From Martelella sp. HB161492 (GTDB taxonomy: Bacteria > Pseudomonadota > Alphaproteobacteria > Rhizobiales > Rhizobiaceae): a stretch of DNA of 64,000 nucleotides. The position numbers were made by a program, and so were the translations under genes. The stretch lies in the NCBI RefSeq assembly GCF_013184775.1, contig NZ_JAATVV010000015.1, positions 1 through 64,000 of the forward strand, given 5' to 3'. The notes under the pieces were generated by a model. The model was not told the DNA's origin. It searched no databases and was given only the letters and a program-made list of their open reading frames with translations. The first letter of the stretch is position 1; the number at the start of each line of letters is the position of its first letter. Of this stretch, positions 3,001-15,765 are shown piece by piece.

Positions 3001-6000
3001 CAGTATGCCGGTGGCGAAGTCACCCGAAGTGGAGACCGTTCCGAGATTATGGGCATAGGCGAAGCCGCCTTCGCCACCGTTGCCGCCCGTGCCGCCGATC
3101 GAATTTTCGATGTTGAGGGTCACGGATTTGTCTTCGGCTGCCTTTTCGAATTCGGCCCAGCCGCCGCTCAGTTTTTCCACGACGCTGGCCAGCGTGGCTG
3201 TGCCGGAGGCCGCCGTGGAATCACCACCATTGCCGCCGCCGCCGCCGATCGACTGCACCACCAGGCCTTCCGCGCCGTCGCCGGTGGTCGTGATGGATGC
3301 GCCTTGCTCAACCCATGCTTCAGCCTTGCCGCCATTGCCGCCATTGCCAGCATTGCCGCCTTGCGATGTTGCGACCGAAAGCGCGAATGTGTTGCCTTCG
3401 GGATCGATCGGAATGCCGACGGCAAGCGACTTTGCCACGGACGATCCGCCTTCGCCGCCGCCGCCACCGATCGACTGGACCAGGACGCCGGTCGAATCCG
3501 TGCCGCTTGTCGCAATCTTCCCGCCGACATGGGCATAGGCATCGCCGCCATTGCCGCCATCACCACCGGTTCCACCCAGGGCGAAGGAAAAGGACCAGCC
3601 GACCGCGTAGGTGTGCGACTTTGCTGTGCCGCCGGAGCCGCCGCCGCCGCCGATCGACTGTACGATGATGGCCGTTGCATTGTCGCCCGACGTCGAAACC
3701 GAGCCACCGCTGGTCTTCTCATAGGTCGCCGTGCCGCCATCACCGCCGGAGCCGCCGGATCCACCAACCGCAGCACTAACATGGGTGAAGATCGACCAGG
3801 CTGATGCCTTGCCGCCAGCGCCGCCACCGCCACCGATCGACTGGATGATCACGCCTGATGCATAGTCGCCAGAGGTGGTGATCGCCGCGTTGTTATAGAC
3901 GTAGGCATCACCGCCATCACCGCCCGAGCCGCCAGAACCGCCAACGGCGATAAAGAACCCGCTTTTGTTGCGGCCGGTGCCGCCGCCGCCGCCGATCGAC
4001 TGGGCGACAATGCCATGCGCTTCAGATCCATAGGTCGTGAGCGCGGCATAGTTCTTGACGGTGACCGTCGCGCCGTCTGAGCCATCGCCGCCCGAGGAGC
4101 CGGAGCCGCCAATGCCGCCGATTGCACCCGATCCGGTATTGTCGCCGCCGCCGCCGCCGATCGACTGGGCGAGAATGGCGATGCCGCCGCCGAGTGAGAC
4201 ATTGTCGTCATCGCTGGTGTCGGTGTTGGACGCGGAATAGCCGCCATGGGTAGTGATCGCACCCTTGTTGATGACAGTAACATTGGCGCCATCGGCACTG
4301 CCGGCTGAACCGCCAACATTTTGATAGGTGGAGCTGGACGTGATCGCATTATAGCTGTCAGTCGACAGCTTGGAGGTTGATACCAGAAGGCCGCCGCCGC
4401 CGCCGATCGACATGGCGACGATACCATGGGAATCGACGCCGTCGGTTACAATCGTGCCGCTGTTGTAGACATAGACGTCGCTGCTGGTATTCGAGGCGAT
4501 GTTGCTATCGCCCCAGGTGAAGTCGCTGTCGCCGGACCAGGCGTAAACGCCACCGCCAGCACCGGCCGAAATGGCGACAATGCCGTTTGAATTGCTGCCC
4601 TCGGTGGTGATGGAGAAGTCGTTCTTGACGGTCACTGCACCGGCCGTACCCCCGGTGTTGCTGGAGGAGGCCTGAGAGGCGATGCGACCGAGGCCGCCCA
4701 GTGAGACTGCTTTGATGCCGCTTGACGAGGCACCGTAGGTCTTGATGCTGCCAGCACCGGTCAGCGTGACGGTTACGTTGCCGGATGCGCCGCCCTGTTG
4801 GCCGCCGTCATAGCCGTTCTGGCTGGTGCCGCCATAGCTTGCAGCCAGAATGCCGTCTGAGTTGTCGCCAAGTGTTTTCAGCAGCGTCGCCGATGTACCA
4901 TAGACGAGCACTGTCACATCGGCGCCGTCACCGCCATCGAAGTCAACGCCTGAGCCATTGGTGGTCGTCAATCCCCAGCCGCCGCCGCTGATCGCGGTAA
5001 TCGCCGCGCCGCTGTCGCGATCTTCCGATTCCCAGGTCCTGGCGATTTTTCCCGACGCTGTGGTGGTGATCGAACCGGCAAAGGCCTGGCTGGAGGAGCC
5101 CAGGGTTACACTCACCGTGCCAGCCTGTCCGCCGATGCCGCCATTCATCGTCAAGCCGGGAGCGCCGGTGCTTTTCAGCCCGTTTCCGCCGTAAGAGGCT
5201 GCAAATATGCCACCGCCGGCAACTGTCGAGGCAATCGTTTCGACATCGCCGGTGACCGTAATCGTCACCGTTCCGCCGGTGCCGCCCGTGCCGCTATTGG
5301 CGGAAGCGCCAGCGCGGCTGATGGCAAGAATGGCGGTATTGTCAGCCGAGATCGAGGCGCTGTCGGTGATCGTTATCGTTCCGGCAGAGCCGCCATTGGC
5401 GTCGTCATAGGGGCTGCCACCGGCACTGATGGCATAAATGCCATTGCCGACAGTGTTGGTGATGTCACCGCTATTGGTGATCGTGATGTTGCCGCCATCG
5501 CCGCCATTGCTAACCTTGTGCTTCCCGTAATATTTGGAGTTGCCGCCAACCGAAACGACCCGGATCGCGTCAGATTGCTTACGCTTGGCGTCGAAATAAT
5601 TCGTCCCATAGGGCGGATCAAACGATATCAGCGGCGAGACGGTTGCCGCTTCGGTAATATCGATCGTGGCGTCATTGGTGAACGAAATATTCAGGCCGGG
5701 AATGGGTTTCTCAGGCGGCCAGTAATAGCCGGTCTTGTAGTCATAGGGATTGGAGTAGAAAGTCAGCGCGCCGCCATAGACATATTGAGGCGTCGTGACC
5801 GTGCTGCCCGAGGGAATTGTGCAGCTGTAGACGCTTGTCGCCTGGGTCCCGTCAAACACATCTGCATGGGGGATCGAAGACGGATTACAGCTCGCCTGGG
5901 CATAGGCGCGCGAATAAAAGCCGCGACTGTAGAAAGGCAATGGTACACCGGCCAGCGTGCCTGCAAGCGCCGTGGTCTGGAATAACAGGGAAGATGCAAT

Positions 6001-6111
6001 GAAGCTGAGGCGACGCTTTCTGACCGGGCGCTCGCTGAGCGGTTTCAAGTCATTGTCTTGGGTGGGCGAAGAAGATGAGGTTTGACCTTTATACCGCAAC
6101 AGTTCTGCCAC
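1..6111 (-). CDS. Giant repeat-rich autotransporter, 3' end beyond window
   Basis: A single open minus-strand frame of 2037 codons starts at GTG 6111 and leaves the left edge without a stop. An AGGGGA ribosome site lies a few bases upstream of the GTG. The first ~35 residues are hydrophilic; a signal-peptide-like segment follows (RKRR, then FIASSLLFQTTALAG), with possible cleavage near AYAQ. The central part is a ~60-residue repeat of the form ITTSGDxAxGIIVQSIGGGGG, as in large rhizobial type Va autotransporters, forming a beta-helix-like passenger. Toward the left edge the repeats stop and a linker (DDLQQLASQ, SCVWAKGLGG) leads to what should be a beta-barrel outside the window. Role is inferred as surface adhesin or biofilm protein. 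The barrel itself is not visible, so secretion type is inferred. It is transcribed away from the glycan operon. Confidence 0.85.
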   Translation of the reverse strand, partial: MAELLRYKGQTSSSSPTQDNDLKPLSERPVRKRRLSFIASSLLFQTTALAGTLAGVPLPFYSRGFYSRAYAQASCNPSSIPHADVFDGTQATSVYSCTIPSGSTVTTPQYVYGGALTFYSNPYDYKTGYYWPPEKPIPGLNISFTNDATIDITEAATVSPLISFDPPYGTNYFDAKRKQSDAIRVVSVGGNSKYYGKHKVSNGGDGGNITITNSGDITNTVGNGIYAISAGGSPYDDANGGSAGTITITDSASISADNTAILAISRAGASANSGTGGTGGTVTITVTGDVETIASTVAGGGIFAASYGGNGLKSTGAPGLTMNGGIGGQAGTVSVTLGSSSQAFAGSITTTASGKIARTWESEDRDSGAAITAISGGGWGLTTTNGSGVDFDGGDGADVTVLVYGTSATLLKTLGDNSDGILAASYGGTSQNGYDGGQQGGASGNVTVTLTGAGSIKTYGASSSGIKAVSLGGLGRIASQASSSNTGGTAGAVTVKNDFSITTEGSNSNGIVAISAGAGGGVYAWSGDSDFTWGDSNIASNTSSDVYVYNSGTIVTDGVDSHGIVAMSIGGGGGLLVSTSKLSTDSYNAITSSSTYQNVGGSAGSADGANVTVINKGAITTHGGYSASNTDTSDDDNVSLGGGIAILAQSIGGGGGDNTGSGAIGGIGGSGSSGGDGSDGATVTVKNYAALTTYGSEAHGIVAQSIGGGGGTGRNKSGFFIAVGGSGGSGGDGGDAYVYNNAAITTSGDYASGVIIQSIGGGGGAGGKASAWSIFTHVSAAVGGSGGSGGDGGTATYEKTSGGSVSTSGDNATAIIVQSIGGGGGSGGTAKSHTYAVGWSFSFALGGTGGDGGNGGDAYAHVGGKIATSGTDSTGVLVQSIGGGGGEGGSSVAKSLAVGIPIDPEGNTFALSVATSQGGNAGNGGNGGKAEAWVEQGASITTTGDGAEGLVVQSIGGGGGNGGDSTAASGTATLASVVEKLSGGWAEFEKAAEDKSVTLNIENSIGGTGGNGGEGGFAYAHNLGTVSTSGDFATGILVQSIGGGGGNGGTGESSSLSLFGDSTFTLTYSVGGSGGTGSSGGTAKGGVSDSGVIKTTGNNSAALIVQSIGGGGGIGAAGNGDVDADTTLNIGVGGTGGAGGDGGKAYAWNAGKITTSGDASSGVVVQSIGGGGGIGGSGTSSVSHSFGIEKELKKIESYGVTIKASLDIDTSLSATVAASGGNGGNGGTVIFGLPEKDQTDFAYGTITTTGALSSGVVAQSIGAGGGSVSLSSNQSLELDAVISKDSTISAKLTLGTTSSETGGTGGSVYAYVSNIYTSGFSSIGVIAQSIGGGGGIGVMSGYAPTSLAVTLGSTESDADESYGGKVEVTLLKSETITTKGDNSSGIIGQSIGAGGGIILAALGTSATENDDTISDVISVTLGSSSHQTNSDTLNGGTVDVTSYGAITTYGTRAFGIVAQSIGGGGGMLSASSTSIASVSFETSQHRASSDDVTVTLKDGGSITTSGDGAAGIIAQSVAGGGGFAADLSSGRLYAYYVSNSDSSYSYAGGDTNGTSGTVTVTVDDGASILTTGDYADGIIAQSIAGSGGIFQKNGKTYAGSLHRNSSSNADASIAITIDGTVKVKSDNSWAVWTQTQDGAISVTVGSTGVISGSTTSSETGGAIYAAHDTGGTVMLDNSGTISGNIVTNVAGTVTSSDNYDSTTVAAADGVVSLSTTAASGSSLLINRGAATLVTGSIVGLDTVLNSGTINLGGEGHVIQTVFSGDLIGIGSSDYGSTYDAETLGLDAAFTAFTYYSRSTVKNWSTATSSSGGLISGLDVDMESGTGDTLVVEGDFAGSWGVDVNATSLLPNTRTDFLKVEGTDLADITVLSSLIYDFTDVTTGSDGWEGFSVDSAHFTDTGLSLGKNASEVSRGLQEVWDRLSAGETASATASDEITIGQIFGSFQQSTTSSLSDDLQQLASQTAAAGVALSPASAIAAASSVLSCPAFEGDGIMLTDGSCVWAKGLGGSTIQQPTGDQYGFTRSMGGVATGGQKAL
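1361..4415 (-). repeat. About 16 coding repeats ending in QSIGGGGG
   Basis: Inside the autotransporter the peptide QSIGGGGG, or a close variant (QSIAGSGG, QSVAGGGG, MSIGGGGG), recurs about 16 times. Copies sit near 1361, 1551, 1720, 1930, 2113, 2320, 2595, 2780, 2976, 3236, 3455, 3636, 3817, 3982, 4150 and 4395. Spacing is mostly 160-260 bp. On the plus strand each appears as a run of GCC codons followed by GATCGACTGG. The units are diverged between the glycine runs, so they look like old duplications under selection, although the GC-rich core could still recombine. Confidence 0.85.
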
Positions 6112-6425
6112 GCGATTCCCCTGATTATGGCCGTAATATGTTTCGCTGCAGCATATGTTAAGTTTTGTTTACATGTCAGACTTTTTTTGAATACTCGCCG
6201 TACTGAAAACCGGATCATTTGAAATTGGCGTTATTCTTTTCTTTTTCCAGCTGGGGGAAGGCGTGGGGCGATTAAGGCTTCAAGCTTGAGGATGCCCGGA
6301 TGATGTTGTTCCGGAGCCGACTTAAAACTAGAGTGCCGTGCGTCCTTTTTGACGCACGGCACTCTATCTTATTGAATCTACACATTGTTTTTTCGAAAAT
6401 CGATTCCGACTTTCGAGCCGATGCG
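6112..6425. other. Intergenic region upstream of the autotransporter
   Basis: This AT-rich 314-bp gap holds the leader of the autotransporter gene (6112 to about 6250) and, at 6329-6366, a strong hairpin downstream of the glycan operon. No convincing sigma-70 promoter pair stands out. The plus-strand reading frame that crosses it is antisense to the gene at 6426 and has no coding support. Confidence 0.5.
6329..6366 (-). terminator. Perfect 16-bp hairpin downstream of the glycan operon
   Basis: The arms TAGAGTGCCGTGCGTC and GACGCACGGCACTCTA are perfectly complementary around a 6-base loop. On the minus strand the stem is followed by GTTTTAAG, a short U-tract. It lies about 60 bp beyond the stop of the last operon gene (6426), where a factor-independent terminator would be expected. 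GC-rich palindromes of similar look are common between genes in rhizobia, so it may also belong to a dispersed repeat family. Confidence 0.65.
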
Positions 6426-7058
6426 CTAGAGCCAAAGCTCCGGCATTTTTGTGCAAACCATGTCCGGTCTGAACCCGCCGGCCTCGAGCTTGTCGAGTTT
6501 GTCAAGAAACGCCTCGATCTTCGGCTGCCAGCAATCTGGCCGGTCAACGTGATGAAGCTCTGGGGAAACCTGACACAACTTGAAACCGGCATCTCTCAGT
6601 CGCAGAAGCGCGTCATGCGCCAAAGGTTCGCCCGTAAAGCTGTCTACCCAAATCCAGTCGACCCGCTTGTCCTCCTTCTTCAGATAGTCCTGAAGGCGCA
6701 GGGCGGTCTCGATGCTTTCAAACTCCGATACGCGAACTGCAAAATTGGGCAGCCCCTGCAGCGCGAATTTGCGGATAAAAGGCAGGCTTTCATCAAGGAT
6801 GAAATAGTCTTTCACGCCATATTTCTCAAAGAGTTCCAGAAGTTTAGGCTCGAGGCCTTCCTCCTTGACATTGGCAATCATGAAGTGATGGTGGTAGGAA
6901 GCCAGCCATTCCTCAAAATTCACTGCAGCATCGTTGAAAGGATCGTGGAACACGATCAGTTCCTTGCCATGATTGCGCAGGTCTATCTCAACGCCATATT
7001 CCGGCTTGGTCTGCTGCAGCTCGGCAACAGAATTGCGACGATGGTGAATGATGATCAT
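6426..7058 (-). CDS. GDPD/PLC-like phosphodiesterase-fold protein
   Basis: A 210-residue protein resembling the glycerophosphodiester phosphodiesterase TIM-barrel superfamily: HHRRN near the N terminus, EIDLR at 24-28 and HDP at 38-40 match the usual H-R, E-x-D and H-D active-site stations, and a KMPELW segment closes the C terminus. It is shorter than typical GDPDs (~240-250) and the first catalytic segment is abbreviated. It is the last gene of the eight-gene minus-strand operon, 4 bp after the GT2 gene. Small GDPD-like proteins of this kind occur in polysaccharide clusters; activity on a glycerophosphoryl- or polyol-phosphoryl-linked glycan or precursor is an inference. No signal peptide, so probably cytoplasmic. 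Confidence 0.65.
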   Translation of the reverse strand: MIIIHHRRNSVAELQQTKPEYGVEIDLRNHGKELIVFHDPFNDAAVNFEEWLASYHHHFMIANVKEEGLEPKLLELFEKYGVKDYFILDESLPFIRKFALQGLPNFAVRVSEFESIETALRLQDYLKKEDKRVDWIWVDSFTGEPLAHDALLRLRDAGFKLCQVSPELHHVDRPDCWQPKIEAFLDKLDKLEAGGFRPDMVCTKMPELWL

Positions 7059-7062
7059 GGAT

Positions 7063-7779
7063 CTAGTCCTGTTTCCTCAGCGAATCCCGGAATTCGAAAA
7101 TATAGGCGAAGGTTCTGCGAATGAGCTTTATCCGGGTCTTCCAGTTGCCGCCGCCCTTGGCCTCACCGAAGCGCCTTTCTGCGAAAAAGACAGGAACTTC
7201 CAATATCTTGTAGCCATTGGTGACGGCCTGATAGAGCAAAAAGAGATCGAGTGAAAAGTCGTGCGGAGCGCGCTCTTTGACAAAGGTCTCGTAAAACGGT
7301 CGGGTGAACACTTTGGGTTGTGCATTGACATCGGAGAGGTGCACGCCAAGCACCATGGATGCGACCAGCTGCATTCCGAACGTGAAAAACTCCTCCAGCT
7401 TCTTACGGTTCTGGCGTTTTCCTTTCACGATGATCTTGGCGTCTGCTTGCGCGCTCAGCAAGTCGAAAGCCTTGATAACGTCGTAAGGATCCGTCTGCAT
7501 GTCTGCATGTGTCCATGCCAGAACATCAGCGTCACTGGCGGCAAGTCCGCTCAGAATTCCGTAGCCATAGCCCTGATTGACGGGCACATGAATGCTGCGG
7601 ATGAAATCCTTCTCGTTAAGCTCTGCAGCGAGAACCTGCTGCGAGTTGTCGGTCGAGCCGTTGTCGACGAGAATGACCTCAACATCACTCCGCTGTCCGA
7701 TGGTTTCGCGCAAACGCGACACGATGAGCGGGATGTTCTGGCTCTCATTGTAGCTGGGAATGATAATGGCAAGCTTCAT
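7063..7779 (-). CDS. Family 2 glycosyltransferase, polyprenyl-phosphate type
   Basis: A 238-residue GT2 of the DPM1/GtrB kind. It begins MKLAIIIPSYNE; VDNGSTDNS lies near residue 40 and HADMQTDP in the place of the metal-binding DxD. There are no C-terminal membrane helices, as in soluble DPM1-type enzymes. An in-frame start 36 bp upstream is possible, but the ATG at 7779 overlaps the TGA of the preceding gene as ATGA, the junction used through this operon. With a GtrA homologue and a GT-C protein in the same transcript, it most likely loads a sugar or polyol onto undecaprenyl phosphate on the cytoplasmic face. The donor is unknown; the operon suggests a custom nucleotide sugar. Confidence 0.82.
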   Translation of the reverse strand: MKLAIIIPSYNESQNIPLIVSRLRETIGQRSDVEVILVDNGSTDNSQQVLAAELNEKDFIRSIHVPVNQGYGYGILSGLAASDADVLAWTHADMQTDPYDVIKAFDLLSAQADAKIIVKGKRQNRKKLEEFFTFGMQLVASMVLGVHLSDVNAQPKVFTRPFYETFVKERAPHDFSLDLFLLYQAVTNGYKILEVPVFFAERRFGEAKGGGNWKTRIKLIRRTFAYIFEFRDSLRKQD

Positions 7780-8579
7780 GAAACCCACGGTTCCTTCTTT
7801 GCAAACTCTTCCCAATAGCGAATGGTATTCTCATAATTCTCGTATTCTGCAGGCGTTCCCCAGCAGACATAGCGGGAAATCTCGGTGACCCGGACATCAC
7901 AGCCGCGGTTCACGAGATATTTGAAATTCTGATCAACGTAGAACTCGCCGTTGATGCGATCGTTTTCGGCAATCATTGCTTCGCTCGCCTCAATGAACAG
8001 CCTTCCGGTCCTGTACCAGAAGGTGCCGACGACGGCATGATCATTCATCGGTGTATCGCTGATTGGCTGCTTGATCGAAACGCCCGTAACCTGCTCTTCC
8101 GCGACCTTGACCCATCCATATGCCTTGGGATTTTCCAAAACGGCGTCATTGTTTCTGAAGGTAAAAATCAGTGCGTCGGCATTATTGCACTGCTCTTCGA
8201 AATGCTCACGAGAGATGTCCATGCCGTTATCGCAGGCCGCAATGAGCAGTGGAGCGTCGTTGTCGATATAGGATCGGGCCAGCAGGCAGGTGCTGGCCTG
8301 ACCTTCGGTCAGCGCGCTGATAGAGACGAAATGCGCGCGCGGAAACCGTTTCAGAAGTATCTGATCGACACCTGCCTCAAGATGAAAATCGCGCACGACG
8401 AAAATCAGATTGTTCTCAGGATCGTCCAGATCCACCGGCAGATCTTCAGCAGCAGCCACCACCATCGGCACGGTCTTGTTGACCCAGCGACTGCTGACCG
8501 GAATGACCGGCTTATGCTGCTTGTAGCCCGCATCAATGAAGCGCGATCCTGCGCCAGCCATGGGAATAAGGATGTTCAT
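7776..8579 (-). CDS. Sugar-phosphate nucleotidyltransferase-like protein (second copy)
   Basis: A 267-residue nucleotidyltransferase-fold protein beginning MNILIPMAGAGSRF, the glycine-rich nucleotide loop, followed by KPVIPV where the canonical PKxxxP lies. AACDNGMD around residue 115 replaces the usual GD metal site, and GEFYVDQ near 220 and CWGTPAEY near 250 are typical of capsule-cluster nucleotidyltransferases. The start is the ATG at 8579, which overlaps the previous TGA; an upstream in-frame extension has no ribosome site. It shares layout (GSRF, GEYYV/GEFYV, WGTP) with its upstream neighbour, so the two are paralogues. They may act as a heteromer or on two substrates; the base used cannot be read from the sequence. 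Confidence 0.75.
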   Translation of the reverse strand: MNILIPMAGAGSRFIDAGYKQHKPVIPVSSRWVNKTVPMVVAAAEDLPVDLDDPENNLIFVVRDFHLEAGVDQILLKRFPRAHFVSISALTEGQASTCLLARSYIDNDAPLLIAACDNGMDISREHFEEQCNNADALIFTFRNNDAVLENPKAYGWVKVAEEQVTGVSIKQPISDTPMNDHAVVGTFWYRTGRLFIEASEAMIAENDRINGEFYVDQNFKYLVNRGCDVRVTEISRYVCWGTPAEYENYENTIRYWEEFAKKEPWVS

Positions 8580-9352
8580 GCTTGGCGCCTCCGCACCACG
8601 TCCTGCCAGTAGAGATATTCGTTGAGGTCCTCGGGCGTGCCCCATTGGCAGAAATGCTGGACGTTTGCAGGAACAGCCACAGCCAGCCCGTCCCGGACCA
8701 GATGGTTGTAGACCATGCTGACATAATACTCGCCGTTCAGGGCATCATCAGCCTGCATGAGCTTGTTGCAATAGTCCTTCATGATCCGCCCTGAGCCGAA
8801 ATAATATACGCCGGGAGAATGGAGCGCCTTGGTCTTGTCCTTCTCGAAAGAGTATTTTTCGCGAATTTCCTCAAGCAGGCCGTCTGCATTGACACGGCAG
8901 GAGGCATAAAGGTTCTTCGCTGGCAGAAGGTGTGGATGAAAGCCCGTATAGCAAGGGATTGCGCCGGCATAATTGCCCCGCCGCAAGTCGTCCTTGAAGC
9001 CTTTGTAGTCCCATTGCATGTAGAAGTCGCAATAGCTGACCAGAACCGGGCGATCATCATCGATGTGATCGGCAGCCTGCATCAGGGCTGCGACCGGACC
9101 GAGCTTCGCGCCTTCAATCGCGTGAATACGAGCATCGGGCTTCAGCGTTTCCAGTGTTGCCCGCATGGCGGTTTCATTGAGGTGCTGTTCTCGGCAGATA
9201 AATAAGGGAGCGTCCTCCCCCGGAAACATGCGAAGCACCCATTCGATCATCGGACGACCATGCACCTTGATGAGCGGCTTCGGATCTTTATACCCCGCTC
9301 TCACAAAGCGGGACCCCAGCCCGGACATCGGGATTACCAACTGCAAATTCAT
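8576..9352 (-). CDS. Sugar-phosphate nucleotidyltransferase (first copy)
   Basis: A 258-residue nucleotidyltransferase: VIPMSGLGSRF at 6-16 is the nucleotide-binding loop, KPLIKV the sugar-phosphate lysine region, SYCDFYMQWD near 108 the metal-binding segment, and GEYYVSM and WGTPEDLNEY the C-terminal signatures of capsule-type enzymes. It is probably the catalytic copy, because its D-containing SYCDF segment is closer to the canonical form than that of the downstream paralogue. It overlaps the aldolase gene upstream and the second nucleotidyltransferase downstream by ATGA, so translation is coupled. The expected product is a nucleotide-activated sugar or polyol made from the phosphate supplied by the kinase and aldolase in the same operon. 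Confidence 0.8.
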   Translation of the reverse strand: MNLQLVIPMSGLGSRFVRAGYKDPKPLIKVHGRPMIEWVLRMFPGEDAPLFICREQHLNETAMRATLETLKPDARIHAIEGAKLGPVAALMQAADHIDDDRPVLVSYCDFYMQWDYKGFKDDLRRGNYAGAIPCYTGFHPHLLPAKNLYASCRVNADGLLEEIREKYSFEKDKTKALHSPGVYYFGSGRIMKDYCNKLMQADDALNGEYYVSMVYNHLVRDGLAVAVPANVQHFCQWGTPEDLNEYLYWQDVVRRRQA

Positions 9353-10191
9353 GATCCAGATACTTTCTGCCTATATTTTTCAGATTCCATCTGAAGCAGC
9401 CGGTTCCTTTCGGCATCTTCCAGGAATTTCAGTGTCAATCCGATCTTCGGGATGAAACAGGCAAGGAACTGCACGGCCTGCCTTGTCTCAATCCCGGCTC
9501 GCGTCTGCTGCAGCGCGGCATTGCTATGATAAACGGCCTGATCGGGGAACAGCAGCCCGTCAACGGCAACAGTTTCGCAAACGGGGAAATCCAGGGCGGT
9601 ATCAAAATGCGCCCGAATGGTTTCGTTGACCTTTTCATGCAGCGCGAGCGCCGCATCCTCGCTGTCCGCACTCACGATCAGCCCATGATTTTCCAAAAAG
9701 AGAATTCCTGGATGCGTGTCATCCGCCAGGACCGCAATTTTCTTGGTCAGGTCCAGGCCTGGTGTCGCGTAGGGAACCCAGAGCATGTCAGGAAAAAGCG
9801 CTGACGCCAGTTCTTCGCCTTCCTGCGAGCAATTCAGCAGATTGGCCCAGACCGAATGGCTATGCAGCACGCAGCGGCCGAGAATGGCGTGGAAGCCTGT
9901 CTCGATGGAGGATCTGATGGATGGGGTGTCCGACCATGAGCACGCCGTCATCAGCGCCGAATAGTCGTCCTCGCTCATACAGTTTGCGACGTCGCGTTTC
10001 ATCCGCTGCCAGTCCACAGGTATGAAACCGGTTTCGGCGGAAATCCCGTCCAGCAACCGCCCGGAGGCCTTTACATACATGGTGCGCTCGTCGGTCTTGA
10101 TCGACGTGTTGCCGCCGCCGCCCTGAACATAGCCGGTGTTCGAGCCCAGATACCGCGAAACATCGACGAGCTTTTGGATATCAGATGCCAT
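9349..10191 (-). CDS. Class II aldolase/adducin-family protein
   Basis: A 280-residue class II (zinc) aldolase-fold protein. GGGGNTSIK at 25-33 is the phosphate-binding loop, YVKASGRLL the second signature, HSHSVW near 113 carries two zinc-ligand histidines, and LENHGLI near 166 supplies a further histidine. The family reversibly joins or splits sugar phosphates, usually with DHAP, lactaldehyde or glycolaldehyde; some members are epimerases or decarboxylases. A class II aldolase between two nucleotidyltransferases and a kinase fusion suggests that it shapes the carbon skeleton of the sugar that is then activated. It overlaps the kinase-fusion gene by 11 bp and the next gene by 4 bp. Confidence 0.8.
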   Translation of the reverse strand: MASDIQKLVDVSRYLGSNTGYVQGGGGNTSIKTDERTMYVKASGRLLDGISAETGFIPVDWQRMKRDVANCMSEDDYSALMTACSWSDTPSIRSSIETGFHAILGRCVLHSHSVWANLLNCSQEGEELASALFPDMLWVPYATPGLDLTKKIAVLADDTHPGILFLENHGLIVSADSEDAALALHEKVNETIRAHFDTALDFPVCETVAVDGLLFPDQAVYHSNAALQQTRAGIETRQAVQFLACFIPKIGLTLKFLEDAERNRLLQMESEKYRQKVSGS

Positions 10192-12331
10192 TATCAGCCT
10201 CCCAGTCGCTGAAGATACAATAGCTTGCGATCAACTGAATGACACCTTGCCAACCCCCTTCCCAGGCGGGATCATATATCCCGAATTGCTGCAGTCCCTT
10301 TACGTGCTTTTCACCCAGAGCCGCGATATCCTCCAGCTTTGGTGGCGTGTCGAATTCGATGACCTGGGAGTCGTTCTCGTCATAGTAATGGTGAACTGCG
10401 CCTGGATGTGCGTCCATGAGATCCGAAACAACCGGATCAAGGAAATAGGCGTTGGAAAGCGACAGCCGCAGCCATTCGTGGACTTCATAGTCCTTGTTGC
10501 CGATCTGGTCTTCCGGAATTTCCTCCTGCAGCATGAAGGAAATGATGATATCGGCATAGCCTTCCTGCTTGATAATGTACTTTTCGGAATCCCCGCGTCG
10601 TTGCCGGATTGACGCAAGGACCTCTTCCCTGGGGTAATTGCGATTCTCCATATCCCGTAACACCTTGCGGTGAAGCAGAAGTGTGTGGTCCGGCTTCATG
10701 AAGATTTTCAGATCAAAGAGATCGCGTGCCGGCTTCAGGTAGAAGGAATGCAAGCCCTCAAGGATCATCACCGGCCGTGGGTTGACCGGAAGTTCATCCG
10801 TGAAGCGACCGGTATCATGGTCATAATGCCGGCGCCGGATCAGCTTGTTTCGCCGAAGCTGCTTCAGGTAAACGAGCTCATGATGCAGTTCATTTGCCCG
10901 CGGATCCAGATGAGTCAATTCGCTCCAGCGTTTATGCCCTCTCTGCCACTTGTGCATGTCGTCGCCGCAGATCACCCCGAGAAGGTTCAGGCCGAACAGG
11001 TTCTGAAGGCTATCGGAAACCGTAGACTTGCCGGATCCAGAATCTCCGGCGACACCCAGCATGAACGGTCGGGCGATGAGTTTGCTGCTCTGCGGAACAT
11101 GAATGCCCCTGAAATACATCACCACGCTGCTAAGCAGCAGAAATGTCTGCAGTCCGGTGAAAGCGAGATTCACGAACAGCTCCGGATCCCAGCCGCGCCG
11201 GGCAAGCGCGGCATAGGCCGACGGAACGGTAGGCAAGCCCTTAATCTGCAGCAGCTGCGTGAAGTCTGAATTCGGTATCAAACCAAAATAGAGAAAATAG
11301 GACCCCTGCAGAGCAACGATCAGCAACTGGTACGGATAGGGAATGCGAGCGTAAAAATAGGCAAAGAACGGGATAACCCAGAAATACCAGCCCTGGGAAG
11401 GCGGCACGAACAGCAGAATGATGCTGCAGGCAAAACCGACGAATATCAGGAACAGATCCCTGTTCCGAATATGGATATGGCTGGAATATATGATCAGTCC
11501 CGTCAGGACGGACGGAATGATGTAGAAGTGTAGGTCCTGATAACCCGTTGAAATTGCAGCGAGTCCTACCTTGTTCTGCTCGGGGTTCAAGAACACCATG
11601 CCGATGAAGCTGCTGCTGGTCAGAAATGGCAGGTTCAAGATGATGAATACTGCGGCCGAGATCAGAAGATATTTGGCGATCGTCGAGCCACGCTGCGCAT
11701 TCTGCCAAAGATAGACCAGAATGAAGGGCAGCATCAAAAACATGTGCGTTTTGGCACTGATCGCCAGTCCGAACAGGATCGCGGAAGCCAGGGGGCGCCT
11801 GGAAAAGAGGAAGTAGGCGGACAAGAGTGCCAATGCCATCGGAATAGCATCAAGCTGTCCATGCAGGTAGCTGATGTAGAACAGGACTGGGCTGGCCCAA
11901 TAGAGCCAAAGCAATACCTTCACTTTCTGTCGCAGCCATCGGCAAAGAACGAGCAATATTGCCAGATCAGCCAGGAGGAGAGGGATGCGATAGACGAAGA
12001 GCAGGAAATTCTCGTTTTCGGAGGTCAGCCCAACAAGTGAAAGCAGCCAACGCGGGAATGCCATAATATAGAGCATCGCCGCCGGATAAGGGAAATTCAG
12101 CACATCTCCCCTGGACCAGAAGGTATGATAAGGGTTCCGTGTCGGGTCGGCGACAAAAGCTTCCAGAAACGGAATGAAAAGACCGGTCAGATAGCTGGAT
12201 CCGAAGAGGCAGGATGCAACAATCTTGATGACCAGAACGGACCAGAAAACCTTCGATCGGATAACGGCCCGAGTCCAGTTCATTATGCGCGCACTGAAGT
12301 GCGTGTTTGCTGCTGCTGCCTTTTCGATCAT
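10181..12331 (-). CDS. GT-C membrane glycosyltransferase fused to a P-loop sugar/uridine kinase
   Basis: This 716-residue protein has two unrelated halves. Residues ~25-410 are a polytopic membrane domain with about ten helices, a periplasmic loop containing FWSRGDVLNFPYP (71-83) and the HGQLDAIP motif (157-164), resembling polyprenyl-phosphate-sugar GT-C mannosyltransferases. Residues 422-716 form a soluble uridine-kinase/phosphoribulokinase-like P-loop domain: GDSGSGKST (429-437), CGDDMHKW, HLDPRAN, RHYDHDTG (501-508) and VMILEGLHSF (521-530). The open frame is continuous across the junction with no sign of an assembly frameshift. The kinase would face the cytoplasm and the GT active site the periplasm. 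Start ATG 12331 overlaps the GtrA stop. Inferred role: phosphorylating the sugar precursor and transferring the lipid-linked sugar in one polypeptide. Confidence 0.8.
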   Translation of the reverse strand: MIEKAAAANTHFSARIMNWTRAVIRSKVFWSVLVIKIVASCLFGSSYLTGLFIPFLEAFVADPTRNPYHTFWSRGDVLNFPYPAAMLYIMAFPRWLLSLVGLTSENENFLLFVYRIPLLLADLAILLVLCRWLRQKVKVLLWLYWASPVLFYISYLHGQLDAIPMALALLSAYFLFSRRPLASAILFGLAISAKTHMFLMLPFILVYLWQNAQRGSTIAKYLLISAAVFIILNLPFLTSSSFIGMVFLNPEQNKVGLAAISTGYQDLHFYIIPSVLTGLIIYSSHIHIRNRDLFLIFVGFACSIILLFVPPSQGWYFWVIPFFAYFYARIPYPYQLLIVALQGSYFLYFGLIPNSDFTQLLQIKGLPTVPSAYAALARRGWDPELFVNLAFTGLQTFLLLSSVVMYFRGIHVPQSSKLIARPFMLGVAGDSGSGKSTVSDSLQNLFGLNLLGVICGDDMHKWQRGHKRWSELTHLDPRANELHHELVYLKQLRRNKLIRRRHYDHDTGRFTDELPVNPRPVMILEGLHSFYLKPARDLFDLKIFMKPDHTLLLHRKVLRDMENRNYPREEVLASIRQRRGDSEKYIIKQEGYADIIISFMLQEEIPEDQIGNKDYEVHEWLRLSLSNAYFLDPVVSDLMDAHPGAVHHYYDENDSQVIEFDTPPKLEDIAALGEKHVKGLQQFGIYDPAWEGGWQGVIQLIASYCIFSDWEADNGI

Positions 12332-12723
12332 GGCTGAGCTCTGAATACCAACAACCGCGTTCCGAGGAAATTTGTGCAGGTCGTAAGGCAGATCGTGATC
12401 AAATTGCCTAAAAGCGGATCCAAGCCAAATACCTCCACCAGCAACCTGAAAAAGGCTATCCCAAGACCAAGAGATACCATGTAAACGGCGACATATTTCG
12501 AAACCACCGCGAGGGTGGAGGCTTCGCGCACCTGGAATGTCCAGATTTTGTTGAATATGTAACCGAAACCCAAACCCGCCAGAAAGCCCACCACGAATGC
12601 CAGAGAATAGTCGGTGCCGGCAAGCTCAAATAGTACATAAAAAAAACAATAGTTGATAACTGTTGATGCCCCGCCCACGATCAGGAATCTGAGGAGCGGA
12701 GAACTGGGAATACTTTTAATCAC
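12328..12723 (-). CDS. GtrA-like four-helix membrane protein
   Basis: A 131-residue GtrA-family protein with four predicted transmembrane helices. RFLIVGGASTVINY near the N terminus is the family signature, GFGYIFNKIWTF lies in the middle, and the C terminus (TNFLGTRLLVF) matches the usual NFxxxRxxVF ending. GtrA proteins are thought to move undecaprenyl-phosphate-linked sugars to the periplasmic face for O-antigen or other surface-glycan decoration. It overlaps the HAD gene upstream and the GT-C/kinase gene downstream by ATGA, so flippase, periplasmic transferase and, further down, the polyprenyl-type GT2 are co-expressed. Confidence 0.88.
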   Translation of the reverse strand: MIKSIPSSPLLRFLIVGGASTVINYCFFYVLFELAGTDYSLAFVVGFLAGLGFGYIFNKIWTFQVREASTLAVVSKYVAVYMVSLGLGIAFFRLLVEVFGLDPLLGNLITICLTTCTNFLGTRLLVFRAQP

Positions 12724-13394
12724 GCGGCCGCCATTTCATTAAGATCTACCCGATAGCCCCGAATCCCGAGAGACAAAGCGCCTCTCACATCCTTTTTGAA
12801 GCTGTCTCCCAACATGATTGCGTCACGCGCATCAATGCCAAGCTTCTGTAAAGCCAGACTGAACATTCGGGCGTCAGGTTTCTCAGCGCCAACTTCTTCT
12901 GAGGTGACAAGCTGGTCAATAAATTTCCCGATACCGAGACGGTCGATCTTTCTGATCTGCACATGGGCTGTCATGTCGGTCACAATACAGACAGGGAGTT
13001 GCAGTTCCTTGCATCTTGCCAGAAAACCGAGAGCGGAGGCATGGGGTGTCATAACGGACAGAAATGTGTCCCAATAGACCTGATCCAGAGTGAACGCCTG
13101 TTCAAAAGGCTTTCTACAGTTGAGGTCTTCGCACATCATTTGAAAGGCGAAAAGCCTTGAGCGGCAGGCACCCTGACCAGCGAGACGTTTCGTCACCGCC
13201 GTCCGGCACGCTCTGTATGTGTTGAAGTAGTCATCCTTGGACAGTCCGAGATTGTCTCGTGAAAATGCGGCATCCAGCGCTGAAGCGTGGCAGGGGTCAT
13301 AGCGGTAGATTGTGTCGTCCAGATCAATCAGAACGCCTCGAACCCCTTCAAGAGCGATATCATCAAATGCAACGGTCCTATCCTTGCATTCCAT
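12720..13394 (-). CDS. HAD-superfamily phosphatase, first gene of glycan operon
   Basis: A haloacid-dehalogenase hydrolase of 224 residues from ATG 13394. Motif I is LIDLDDTIY, motif II VTDMT, motif III the lysine in GAEKPDARMF, motif IV LGDSFKKDV. The helical cap between motifs I and II makes it a C1-type pyrimidine-nucleotidase/beta-phosphoglucomutase relative. The ATG at 13394 was chosen because GGAGG sits 6 bases upstream; in-frame starts up to 13433 (TTG) are possible. It heads the operon and overlaps gtrA by ATGA. It could dephosphorylate the aldolase product before or after activation; substrate unknown. Confidence 0.8.
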   Translation of the reverse strand: MECKDRTVAFDDIALEGVRGVLIDLDDTIYRYDPCHASALDAAFSRDNLGLSKDDYFNTYRACRTAVTKRLAGQGACRSRLFAFQMMCEDLNCRKPFEQAFTLDQVYWDTFLSVMTPHASALGFLARCKELQLPVCIVTDMTAHVQIRKIDRLGIGKFIDQLVTSEEVGAEKPDARMFSLALQKLGIDARDAIMLGDSFKKDVRGALSLGIRGYRVDLNEMAAA

Positions 13395-13730
13395 TCTCGT
13401 CCTCCGCATCGCGCTTTCTTTTGATATAGGCAATGATCCGGGCGCTTTGGCCCGTTTGACAGCATTTTCAAGGTTTAGCTAGCTTTTAAACTCAGTTGAC
13501 CGCCAAGTCATTATGCCTCTTTGCAGGTTTTAGGTTCAAGCGCCGAATGTTGCCGGTCTTCGTTGCAGCCTTATGACGACATCTCGTTCGTCCGTTGACA
13601 TGCTCGCATGATCGACGACGTCCAGAAAAATGCGCACCGCCAGGCATGCCATGACTGTCGATGCCAAAAGCCATGCTGCTTGGCCGGCCCCCCTGCTGTA
13701 ACCGAAGGGAAGACGCTTGCCTTGCCTCGT
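13395..13730. other. Gap upstream of glycan operon
   Basis: A 336-bp stretch between the operon head and the stop of the orphan membrane protein. It must hold the operon promoter, read leftward, but I can only point to TTGAAA about 70 bp upstream of the ATG, without a good -10 partner. No coding region is convincing; an 80-codon minus-strand frame overlaps the end of the upstream gene and has no ribosome site. Confidence 0.4.
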
Positions 13731-15485
13731 TCACTCGCTCCCGTTCCGTCCGAAAACGAAGCTATAGGGAATTTTCGAATTCTGATCGCGCATTATCTGC
13801 ACAGGCCTGTCGGGGATCAGCTCAATACTGCGGACATCGGGCACTGGCTTATCGAATGGAATGAACAGCACCCCGCCATTCCCTCCTTTGACCTTGGCAT
13901 AAAGCGGACCGCGGGCATCAATGGCCTGTCCGTTGACGAGAATGTCGAAGCGCATTGTTTCATCGAAGGCACCGACTGTCCTGACATAGAGTAGAAAGCC
14001 CATGACCTCGGCTCCGGGTGCAAGGCGCTGTGTCATGTCGAACTGCATCGGCTGTTCCGGGCTTGCCGTCCCTTCCCAAACCAGCCGGCTCTCGACCGGC
14101 GCAGAATCGAGCAGCGCGCAGCCTTTTGTCGAATATGGTGCGTGGAATGTATAGGGTGTGGGAATACAGAAAGCCCGGCCATCCGGGAACTCCACGGAGC
14201 GCCAACCATCCTGCCACATCGACGCTGTGGCCTCCGCCCGGTACATCAAATCGGGCGGGGCGATTGACCGGCTCCAGCCGTGCAGCATCGCGAAGGCCAG
14301 AACCAGCGGCACGACCCGGGCAAAACCGGGCGCCAGCGGTCCGAGACGACGCGCCAGGCCAGACATCAGGGCATCGACCAGTGCCATGAACAGAACCAGC
14401 ACGAATCCGTAAACGGGAAACACATGGTAGAACAGCATTCCGTCCGTGGTGAGGGCTGCCCAGTTCAGGAAACGTGTGACCACCATCGCCGCCGCTCCGG
14501 CATAGGCCAGGCATATGATCCACGTGCCGAACAGCCCCAGGGCTACGGGGCCACGCCTCAGGTTCACCGCGACAGCGAGTATCAACAGCGCTGCGCCGGC
14601 CAGTGCCGCAGCAATGGCAGACAGCCCCTCGACGCCGAGAAGCTGCATCAGTGCAGTGCCAGGAATGGCCAGGCCGGTGGCCAAACGCTCTGGCAGCGTG
14701 ATGGCCGGGTTCGACAGCCAGGAGCTCATGCCCGGATTGCGGACCGCCACCGTGACGGCAACAGCAAGATTTGCGAGTGTCAGCAGGATCATGATGCCGG
14801 CCAGCAGGCGTCCGGTCCCGCGCTGCCGCACAAAGGCCAGCACCTGCAGCGGCAAGGTAATTACCGACAGAATCTTGGTAAGCGAGAGCACGCAGGCAAC
14901 CATGAGAAGTCGTTCGATCCGCTGCCCCCGCCCCTGGCAGGCGAGTGCAAGGATCAGCGTCATGGCGAAGATCTGTGCATATCCAACATTGTAGACGAAG
15001 CGCAGCTGATGATTGCCGATCGTGACCAGGATAACGACGGCGAGCCAGCGCAGCCCGTCAGAACGCACCAGTGCACGAAAGATATTGAGCGCCAGAAGCC
15101 CGAGCAGCGCTCCTCGTAGCAGCGCACCGATGACCTGGTAGAAGAGACCCGCCTCGGCAGGCCTGATGTGCAGAAACTCGCCCACTCCGGCCAGCAGGCG
15201 CGGGATGAGGGAGATGTAGTTGAAATCCGGCCTGAAGATGGTGCGCAGTCCGTTCCACTCCGCATCCCTGAAAAAGGCCAGCTGGTCGGAAAACAGAGCC
15301 GTGCCGGGCTCGAAGAGCTCCGGGTAGCGCAGGTAATCGAGGAACAGTGTGCCAGCGGCGCAGGCTAGAACGATCGCAAACGCATAGCGGGTTCCGAACT
15401 CTGCCCGGTCAAAGTCGACCGGTGACAGGATATCCCGTAGCAACCTGAAAACTCGCCGTTGTTCGGTTGCGGCTTGCCTTTGCAT
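13731..15485 (-). CDS. Polytopic membrane protein, GT-C-like layout, unknown function
   Basis: A 584-residue protein from ATG 15485, chosen because GAGAGGA lies nine bases upstream; in-frame starts at 15530 and 15509 lack one. After a short basic N terminus come about eleven hydrophobic helices up to roughly residue 420, then a ~150-residue soluble C-terminal domain with two cysteines (AFCIPTP, KGCALL) and a beta-rich pattern. The first periplasmic loop carries acidic residues (FSDQLAFFRDAEW), as in GT-C enzymes, but no diagnostic motif is present, so glycosyltransferase is only a possibility. It stands alone upstream of the glycan operon on the same strand, 336 bp away. Confidence 0.7.
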   Translation of the reverse strand: MQRQAATEQRRVFRLLRDILSPVDFDRAEFGTRYAFAIVLACAAGTLFLDYLRYPELFEPGTALFSDQLAFFRDAEWNGLRTIFRPDFNYISLIPRLLAGVGEFLHIRPAEAGLFYQVIGALLRGALLGLLALNIFRALVRSDGLRWLAVVILVTIGNHQLRFVYNVGYAQIFAMTLILALACQGRGQRIERLLMVACVLSLTKILSVITLPLQVLAFVRQRGTGRLLAGIMILLTLANLAVAVTVAVRNPGMSSWLSNPAITLPERLATGLAIPGTALMQLLGVEGLSAIAAALAGAALLILAVAVNLRRGPVALGLFGTWIICLAYAGAAAMVVTRFLNWAALTTDGMLFYHVFPVYGFVLVLFMALVDALMSGLARRLGPLAPGFARVVPLVLAFAMLHGWSRSIAPPDLMYRAEATASMWQDGWRSVEFPDGRAFCIPTPYTFHAPYSTKGCALLDSAPVESRLVWEGTASPEQPMQFDMTQRLAPGAEVMGFLLYVRTVGAFDETMRFDILVNGQAIDARGPLYAKVKGGNGGVLFIPFDKPVPDVRSIELIPDRPVQIMRDQNSKIPYSFVFGRNGSE

Positions 15486-15765
15486 GTTGCGCGTCCTCTC
15501 ACATGCCATTGCGGTGATTCTGAAGCGCAAGTTATCTCAGATTGATGCGGGCGCACAATGTGACTTTCTCATGATTCGAATAGCTAAATACGGTTTCTAC
15601 TGCTGAAAGCGCAGTATACCGTTTCATCGCCGTTCAGACAGAAAGGTCTCCTCAGATAAAGACGGCAGAAATGGCGATGGAATAGGCTCGCGTATCGCAG
15701 CCGCCCTCGGTATCCGTTTTCGTCTCAGAATAGTGACGAAGCTCTCTGCCTGATGGCCCGCAGGC
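15486..15765. other. Intergenic gap with an interrupted hairpin at 15590-15622
   Basis: Between the orphan membrane protein and the VOC gene, ACGGT-ttc-TACTGC (15590-15603) pairs with GCAGTA-t-ACCGT (15611-15622) around a 7-base loop. It lies about 145 bp beyond the VOC stop, read leftward, and about 105 bp upstream of the membrane-protein start. Without a U-tract it could be a weak terminator or an operator for the membrane-protein gene. No coding sequence is apparent. Confidence 0.35.

Follow-up and report, generated by a model that had tools for sequence, protein, structure and literature searches.

A mobile Gtr-like gene cassette proposed to make and attach a ketofuranose, possibly a pentulose

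The first 64,000 nucleotides of contig NZ_JAATVV010000015.1 of Martelella sp. HB161492 (positions 1-64,000, hereafter the window) carry eight coupled genes that run on the minus strand from position 13394 down to 6426. These genes form a compact cassette that is common to distantly related bacteria and that is mobile, with copies on plasmids and in phage DNA. We propose that the sugar synthesised and attached by this Gtr-like cassette is a ketofuranose, with a pentulose, either xylulose or ribulose, as the likeliest candidate; on this proposal we are evenly divided. The original prediction for this DNA had not recognised the gene set as one already described, and our literature search, with most subscription journals outside its scope, found no account of the set or of a xylulose donor.

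Read along the minus strand, the cassette begins with a HAD phosphatase (12720-13394; Pfam HAD, 74 bits), with an ATG at 13394 and a frame that stays open to a TTG at 13433, followed by a GtrA-type flippase (12328-12723; PF04138, GtrA_DPMS_TM, 83 bits) and a 716-residue fusion (10181-12331) of a GT-C glycosyltransferase, approximately residues 1-410 (ALG3, 24 bits), to a kinase, approximately residues 420-716 (PF00485, PRK, 119 bits). Next come a class II (zinc) aldolase with a rhamnulose-1-phosphate aldolase-like N-terminal domain (9349-10191; PF00596, Aldolase_II, 64 bits), nucleotidyltransferase 1 (NT1; 8576-9352; PF12804, NTP_transf_3, 39 bits), nucleotidyltransferase 2 (NT2; 7776-8579), a DPM1/GtrB-like polyprenyl-phosphate glycosyltransferase of family GT2 (7063-7779; PF00535, Glycos_transf_2, 75 bits) and a small, divergent protein of 210 residues with the predicted fold of a GDPD/PI-PLC-like TIM-barrel phosphodiesterase (6426-7058). 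The family names originally given are confirmed by Pfam for six genes; NT2 has no Pfam match and is named by its homology to NT1 (27% identity, E 6e-27), and the GDPD-like protein, also without a Pfam GDPD match, is named from its structure model. As predicted, all eight genes are coupled on one strand, with every open reading frame (ORF) in its expected place, and successive genes overlap at all but one of the seven junctions, with overlaps of 4 bases at five and of 11 at another. The description of these junctions as mostly ATGA holds for four of them (GtrA/GT-C, aldolase/NT1, NT1/NT2 and NT2/GT2); HAD/GtrA is a GTGA overlap, GT-C-kinase/aldolase accounts for the 11 bases, and GT2/GDPD-like, the sole junction without overlap, is a 4-base gap. 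For the glycosyltransferases we rejected arsenosugar and mycofactocin enzymes, to which there were weak NCBIfam matches only.

We examined how far the set recurs as a unit. Scanning genome contigs with an alignment of the GDPD-like protein identified 136 relatives that encode it, and the 80 best of these were taken; together with three viral contigs and three plasmids they gave 86 loci, which were searched with profiles built from four cassettes. Since one viral contig, L103, repeats locus L098 (99.98% over 14.7 kb), the independent loci number at most 85. All nine domains of the cassette were found at 50 of the 86 loci. Only a GtrA match was absent from 10, and both GtrA and GT2 from 8; at the other 18, of which several are truncated by contig ends, other parts were missing. 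GtrA matches were present at 59 of the 86. The GT-C and kinase domains were fused in 79 of the 81 relatives showing both, and NT1 and NT2 likewise form one protein in 72 of 76. In the other four (Brucella pecoris, Aureimonas and two Acetobacter) the nucleotidyltransferases are separate; these four share the gene order of the window and come closest to it, at 42-72% identity, in each of the eight domains tested, GtrA not being among these. In addition, pairwise distances of eight domains (GtrA excluded) correlated across 53 loci with r of 0.79-0.94, and in a permutation test of kinase versus GDPD-like distances the observed value was reached in none of 999 permutations.

Because these loci had been found through the GDPD-like gene, we sampled whole genomes as well. 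In a phylum-wide sample of 398 genomes, the window's own included, the GDPD-like gene occurred in seven and the fusion in five, all within those seven, at a fusion threshold of E up to 1e-60 and with two candidates scored per genome. The class-level distribution was patchy (6 of 385 genomes, own included). Ten GDPD-positive genomes besides our own were available, at least two of which overlap earlier loci (G414 is L087 and G786 is L122): seven have an adjoining GT-C/kinase fusion, two (G487 and G091) have another front end and one (G786) is of a sister type described below. Linkage within the seven is imperfect, as the L148 stretch lacks the HAD gene (its genome is 79% complete), the L153 stretch lacks the aldolase and nucleotidyltransferases, and a GtrA match is missing from the L144, L148 and L150 stretches. 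When the fusion protein was searched against 61 genomes (our own and 60 relatives), the full-length gene was found in the window's own genome only, 16 others gave matches covering the kinase domain alone, and none of the 12 congeners searched gave any match. Recurrence as a unit, which the original prediction had put forward as a check across the Hyphomicrobiales, was upheld by the nine-domain loci and the phylum sample, over a range that proved wider: by record title, carriers include genera of Alpha-, Beta- and Gammaproteobacteria, as well as Prochlorococcus and metagenome-assembled genomes labelled Acidobacteria and others. On the linkage across loci, the co-occurrence in the phylum sample and the correlated divergence we rejected chance clustering, and the cassette is almost certainly inherited as a unit.

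The settings of individual copies document its mobility. A tblastn search of plasmids recovered the set in rearranged form, at 26-49% identity, on an Escherichia coli IncR plasmid and on plasmids of Azospirillum brasilense and Hirschia baltica, all three encoding NT1 and NT2 as one protein. The E. coli copy is present in 2 of 5,426 complete E. coli genomes, plasmid-borne in both, and a Yersinia query found the same two. On two viral contigs the cassette lies within phage DNA: L102 runs on into a phage head scaffolding/protease gene, and L103 has tail sheath and CI-like repressor genes on one flank and, on the opposite flank, genes for a spanin, a tail fibre and the baseplate. In L098 the block shared with L103 ends at a MutS-like gene, recognised by eye. 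The sheath, baseplate and MutS-like proteins of L098/L103 matched no ORF of the other loci, searched among all 86 and the first 24 kb of the window, so that phage flanks are established for L102 and L103/L098 only. A third viral contig, L104, is only sister-like (29% identity; 90-91 bits for the nucleotidyltransferase and 93 for the GDPD-like protein), and tblastn of the L054 GDPD-like protein against 50,697 phage records returned no match, although viral contigs do hold the cassette. The L054 copy lies away from O-antigen genes, and the Yersinia proxima cassette sits between genes that by eye resemble histidine-use genes and others, among which no O-antigen genes were recognised. Elsewhere, gmd-like genes occur near 10 loci and wzm and wzt near 3 and 4, counts that include the Azospirillum locus from which the probes came and some gmd-like matches of only 27-36% identity. 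As separate observations, an IS26 transposase follows the E. coli cassette (L019:13224-18000) on the IncR plasmid of a human stool isolate, and a 100% identical cassette is carried on a plasmid of a bullfrog isolate.

We next consider the three enzymes that would supply the sugar. The kinase domain aligned along its catalytic part with the phosphoribulokinase 6hzk from the Protein Data Bank (PDB; E 1e-37), and its best NCBIfam match was phosphoribulokinase, at 187 versus 82 bits for uridine kinase (214 versus 98 in L054). It scored 133 bits against cyanobacterial phosphoribulokinase, 110 against PDB 9qkn, which is named uridine kinase, and 60 against uridine-cytidine kinases, and on this last comparison a uridine kinase identity was rejected. 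Residues D457, H460 and R464, and K556, R559, D560 and R564, fit the pattern DxxHxxxR ... KxxRDxxxR, which we take to be the ribulose-5-phosphate (Ru5P) site of R. sphaeroides phosphoribulokinase; all of them except R464 are kept in 75-76 of 78 aligned rows (these and the following residue counts include the window and exclude L103, fragments shorter than a fixed length, and weak matches, L104 being one). By its sequence, the kinase is a phosphoribulokinase relative that stands outside the score of the curated family. The HAD protein scored 162 bits against NF053830, ribulose-1,5-bisphosphate (RuBP) 5-phosphatase, with the next best family at 101, and in all four cassettes tested the haloarchaeal RuBP 5-phosphatase was the best match (156-182 bits, next best 93-117). 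Its residues D37, D39, T152, K185 and D210, numbered from the TTG and presumably the HAD-type catalytic residues, are kept in 74-76 of 76 rows. In the aldolase, E97, H110, H112 and H169 are invariant in 71 of 71 rows; after FucA/RhaD, we take the three histidines to be zinc ligands and E97 to be the catalytic glutamate. An AraD-type epimerase was rejected, as the aspartate of that enzyme is a glutamate here.

Together, these three families appear to point to a pentulose phosphate. In haloarchaea, a HAD-type RuBP phosphatase and a FucA-type class II aldolase are encoded in one operon, the phosphatase converting RuBP to ribulose-1-phosphate (Ru1P) and the aldolase handling Ru1P, dihydroxyacetone phosphate (DHAP) and glycolaldehyde (PMC9700705). 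By analogy, a phosphoribulokinase placed before such steps would give the sequence Ru5P to RuBP to Ru1P. The cassette shares the HAD and class II aldolase kinds with this non-carboxylating pentose bisphosphate pathway and differs from it in linking them to a phosphoribulokinase-like domain and to glycan-assembly genes, whereas the haloarchaeal RuBP comes from ribose-1,5-bisphosphate isomerase (PMC9700705). Calvin-cycle phosphoribulokinases (6hzk and 6kev) share the catalytic-domain alignment, including the Ru5P-site pattern; in contrast to them, the cassette kinase is fused to a GT-C membrane domain, bears a C-terminal extension and belongs to a glycan cassette that contains no Rubisco.

The remaining conserved genes would activate and transfer the sugar. 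NT1 keeps G11, G13, R15, K25 and D109 in 73 of 73 rows, and NT2 keeps K23, D117 and D216 in 5 of 5 rows, the same columns being kept in 78 of 78 under another numbering; we regard the GxGxR, lysine and aspartates retained by the pair as hallmarks of sugar nucleotidyltransferases. The AlphaFold2 model of the GDPD-like protein is a TIM barrel (pLDDT 95) whose best Foldseek match is the GDPD 3ks6 (E 7.6e-8, 14% identity), and on this model the protein appears to have a GDPD fold. Residues H6, R7, E24, D26, H38 and K65 are kept in 83-85 of 85 rows, among which H6-R7, E24-x-D26 and H38 presumably correspond to the catalytic residues of GDPDs. The motif N63-x-K65, present in 85 of 85 rows, places an asparagine at what we take to be the site of the metal-binding glutamate (E-x-K) in classical GDPDs. 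The GT2 enzyme has H91-A-D93 where DxD is usual and an aspartate, D150, that is invariant in 7 of 7 rows and may be a catalytic-type residue; its maximum 19-residue hydropathy is 1.48, giving no clear transmembrane stretch.

Two natural replacements of the front end bear on which sugar enters this core. L142, from G487, keeps the fused nucleotidyltransferases, GT2 and GDPD-like protein (223/177, 183 and 272 bits). In 19 kb of this locus the kinase, aldolase, GT-C and GtrA profiles matched nothing, and the only HAD match, of 18 bits, lay some 5 kb off. Adjoining the core is instead a protein of 1293 residues (L142:2775-6656) in which three parts were matched: close to the N-terminus a P-loop, weakly and below cut-off (19 bits); then domains of class II fructose-bisphosphate aldolase (F_bP_aldolase, 32 bits) and of ribulose-phosphate 3-epimerase (90 bits in Pfam, 94 in NCBIfam). 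On the other flank, an inositol-monophosphatase-type protein is encoded in the opposite direction. A pentulose-phosphate epimerase in the place of the front end lends independent support to a pentulose. At L147, from G091, the genes flanked by those for the fused nucleotidyltransferases, GT2 and GDPD-like protein run in the opposite direction and encode an FGGY kinase, an ASRT protein and an L-rhamnose isomerase, the last scoring 556 bits against a cut-off of 647. The 14.5 kb examined at this locus contained no match to the kinase fusion, the HAD enzyme or the aldolase. Isomerase plus FGGY kinase is a usual route to a ketose-1-phosphate. L148, a relative of L147, beside what by eye is a like neighbour gene, has the normal kinase fusion and aldolase. 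Comparison of L142 and L147 thus indicates a constant core of nucleotidyltransferase pair, GDPD-like protein and GT2 with a seemingly exchangeable front end, and from these domain contents we read the core as handling ketose-1-phosphates.

A more distant sister module was also observed on plasmids of Rhizobium, Pseudomonas aeruginosa, Scandinavium and Tropicibacter, in capsule-type clusters (L120:8842-12549, L121:8238-11071, L122:3463-10270 and L123:8950-12465). It comprises GDPD-like proteins 27-29% identical to that of the window, a HAD protein, beta-phosphoglucomutase-like in the one tested, and one to three nucleotidyltransferase-like domains; in Rhizobium K1/93 the genes that precede it resemble, by eye, an erythritol-use operon. 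None of the 25 sister-module genes tested matched the kinase, aldolase, GT2 or GtrA profiles, and the same was true of every ORF in the Scandinavium stretch reached through G786.

In the pathway we propose, the phosphoribulokinase domain would phosphorylate C1 of a pentulose-5-phosphate and the HAD enzyme would strip the 5-phosphate to leave a pentulose-1-phosphate, on which the class II aldolase might reset the stereochemistry or swap the aldehyde part by retro-aldol/aldol reaction via DHAP and glycolaldehyde. NT1, NT2 and the GDPD-like enzyme would then convert the ketose-1-phosphate to a nucleotide-activated ketose, GT2 would load it onto undecaprenyl phosphate, GtrA would flip the lipid-linked ketose, and the GT-C domain and/or a variable neighbouring membrane protein would transfer it to a surface polysaccharide. 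We infer all of these reactions, the sugar, the acceptor and the order of the aldolase and activation steps. Decoration of a surface glycan through a lipid-linked sugar is highly probable, given the combination of GtrA, GT2 and GT-C, large neighbours with at least seven predicted membrane stretches at 55 of 85 loci, and the phage location of two copies. The added sugar is probably a ketose, and the chances of its being a pentulose are finely balanced. The dedicated, unusual sugar or polyol of the original prediction survives in that the cassette has its own sugar pathway, with a ketose, as pentulose phosphate, likelier than a polyol.

How the core might act is a more speculative matter. We know of no nucleotide-sugar route that needs a pair of nucleotidyltransferases plus a phosphodiesterase, and such a set makes little sense for an ordinary nucleotide sugar; it would make sense if the C1 phosphate of a ketose must move to the anomeric C2. 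GDPD and PI-PLC folds make cyclic phosphates. NT1 could accordingly be imagined to make a nucleoside diphosphate (NDP)-1-ketose from the ketose-1-phosphate, after which the GDPD-like enzyme would displace the nucleotide by means of the anomeric 2-OH, form a 1,2-cyclic phosphate in this way and open it to the anomeric 2-phosphate, from which NT2 would make an NDP-2-ketofuranose as the true donor for GT2. Front ends of phosphoribulokinase/HAD/aldolase, of kinase-like/aldolase/pentulose epimerase and of isomerase/FGGY kinase type would feed different ketose-1-phosphates into this core, and its sister version would serve capsule clusters. We consider phosphate-shift chemistry of this kind a long shot, and we are similarly doubtful that the nucleotidyltransferase/GDPD core constitutes a general, unrecognised route of ketose activation.

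Several observations weigh against the pentulose proposal or its parts. The kinase scores of the window and of L054 both fall below the curated phosphoribulokinase cut-off of 236 bits, the HAD scores lie below the NF053830 cut-off of 330, and the aldolase, nearest to the rhamnulose-1-phosphate aldolase/dehydrogenase fusions of TIGR02632/PRK08324 type, reaches 77 bits, far under the cut-offs; the three families are therefore leads by relationship rather than assignments. R464 of the kinase, invariant in 4 of 4 rows, is kept in less than 95% of the 78-row alignment. The predicted Gtr-like nature of the cassette, which the presence of GtrA, GT2 and GT-C and their recurrence as a unit largely bear out, is less simple at eight loci (seven of Roseomonas, Pseudoroseomonas or Belnapia and one of Polynucleobacter) that lack GT2 and GtrA. 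No orthologous GT2 was found in seven of these eight genomes, L058 not being searched: five contain only a distant GT2 (60-70 bits, compared with 432 for the true Yersinia GT2) and two contain none at E 1e-15. At such loci a different GT2 may take the donor, or its transfer may bypass the lipid. No nucleotidyltransferases or aldolase were found within 10 kb on either side of L034, and one of 25 Yersinia genomes (Y. proxima) has a true member, one further match being 32% identical. The L142-type front end occurred in 1 of 48 genomes of its order and in no plasmid or viral contig searched, and the FGGY kinase and isomerase genes of L147, on the opposite strand in a genome that is 71% complete, could be an ordinary rhamnose-use operon. 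To our knowledge, no product or activity is known for any member of the cassette. We found no solved glycan for a cassette carrier, and no genome with a solved xylulose glycan that could be tied to the cassette. Finally, the haloarchaeal pathway, its Ru1P aldolase step included, is described as catabolic (PMC9700705).

Three other explanations were weighed against this background. The same Gtr-like machine might instead use its aldolase to cut Ru1P, with the nucleotidyltransferases activating a product of two or three carbons, either glycolaldehyde, DHAP or a polyol phosphate derived in turn; the decoration would then be short-chain or resemble a phospho-polyol. All zinc ligands and the aldolase-type glutamate are retained in the aldolase, and GDPD folds act on glycerol phosphodiesters. 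Ru1P cleavage is the reaction proposed in haloarchaea (PMC9700705). Yet the set contains no reductase, a DPM1/GtrB-like GT2 and a GT-C enzyme would be expected to take glycosyl donors, and the 3-epimerase domain of L142 would be pointless if the carbon chain were cut, so that we regard a short-chain product as improbable. A different ketose or 6-deoxyketose, built from DHAP and another aldehyde (for example lactaldehyde, giving rhamnulose- or fuculose-1-phosphate) while kinase and phosphatase just trim phosphates, would suit the aldolase's nearest matches and the L-rhamnose isomerase and FGGY kinase found between the module's genes in L147. As this leaves the Ru5P-pattern kinase and the RuBP-phosphatase-like HAD unexplained, we think it distinctly unlikely.

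It is also conceivable that the cassette is an ordinary piece of an O-antigen or capsule pathway, its product a common nucleotide sugar and its kinase, aldolase and phosphatase mere housekeeping passengers. That some loci adjoin gmd-like, wzm or wzt genes, and that the distant nucleotidyltransferase/GDPD/HAD module lies in capsule-type clusters, would fit such an origin. However, the conserved linkage and correlated divergence of the domains, the GT-C/kinase fusion, the plasmid and phage copies and the position of the L054 copy already disfavour it, and we judge it very unlikely.

The pentulose-forming Gtr-like system proposed here has partial parallels among known ones. With gtrABC of Shigella and Salmonella phages it shares a GtrA flippase, a GT2 of predicted polyprenyl-phosphate type and possibly a variable large membrane transferase, as well as mobility, with some copies phage-borne; the Salmonella GtrC families show little mutual homology (PMC3688519). 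It differs in having its own kinase, phosphatase, aldolase, two nucleotidyltransferases and GDPD-like enzyme, in a constant GT-C domain fused to the kinase, and in a GT2 without a clear counterpart of the membrane helices of GtrB (PMC4728340). Phosphoribulokinase and RuBP-phosphatase relatives would have been recruited into a mobile surface-modification system found on phage DNA and plasmids.

Sugars of the proposed product class, the pentulofuranoses, are known from bacterial polysaccharides. D-xylulofuranose is reported in a Devosia polysaccharide and xylulose in E. coli O95, Yersinia enterocolitica O:10, Campylobacter jejuni RM1221 and Eubacterium saburreum (PMC8707391). In Y. enterocolitica O:10 it is a side chain, L-xylulose on D-rhamnose, and the O-antigen cluster contains D-rhamnose, ABC-transporter, methyltransferase and glycosyltransferase genes, with none named for xylulose synthesis in the accessible part of the account (PMC11380512). 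No gene set for xylulose was found in these papers on xylulose-containing polysaccharides, as far as their accessible parts go (PMC8707391, PMC11380512), and a literature search on CDP-, UDP- and GDP-xylulose, CDP-ribulose and CDP-/UDP-fructose returned no bacterial donor by title or abstract. We found no account of how bacteria synthesise donors for xylulose and other ketofuranoses; the cassette offers a defined eight-gene candidate and makes the question of ketose activation testable.

Beyond the eight genes, a large multi-pass membrane protein of 599 residues is encoded upstream on the minus strand (13731-15530). It resembles a protein adjoining the E. coli cassette (E 1.6e-9), its relatives adjoin other cassettes, and family members occur at 12 of the 86 loci (L103 repeating L098) at 18-23% identity to the window protein; its structure model is poor (pLDDT 53). 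This membrane protein is probably a ninth part of the cassette and possibly an acceptor-specific, Gtr-type-like transferase. The large ORFs with seven or more predicted membrane stretches noted above lie within 3.5 kb of their cassettes and fall into many sequence clusters; these variable neighbours look as a replaceable acceptor-specific transferase might, and some are unrelated genes, such as an apparent permease near L054. In addition, a methyltransferase-like protein is encoded at L021:14511-15326, and at 11 further loci one that is 52-55% identical to that of Hirschia is encoded in or near the cassette; it may methylate the added sugar.

The GC content of the window is 0.51-0.55 over positions 6001-14000, taken as four 2-kb bins, and 0.60-0.65 in 18 of the 28 remaining bins, the region from 24 to 38 kb being likewise low (0.52-0.58). 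Downstream of the cassette, the window matches the congener G007 at 94% as far as position 6018, where the match ends, so that the cassette looks like an acquired block beside a shared gene. Just beyond the cassette end, at 6328-6400, lies a dispersed repeat of about 73 bases that forms part of an inverted repeat; the window's genome and its congeners contain dozens of copies with a similarity of roughly 78-88%. Further downstream, positions 1-6111 of the minus strand form a region rich in short repeats that probably encodes a single large, repeat-rich secreted protein extending past the window's edge, with a GTG start near 6111 as judged by eye and similar sequence at several sites in the genome and congeners.

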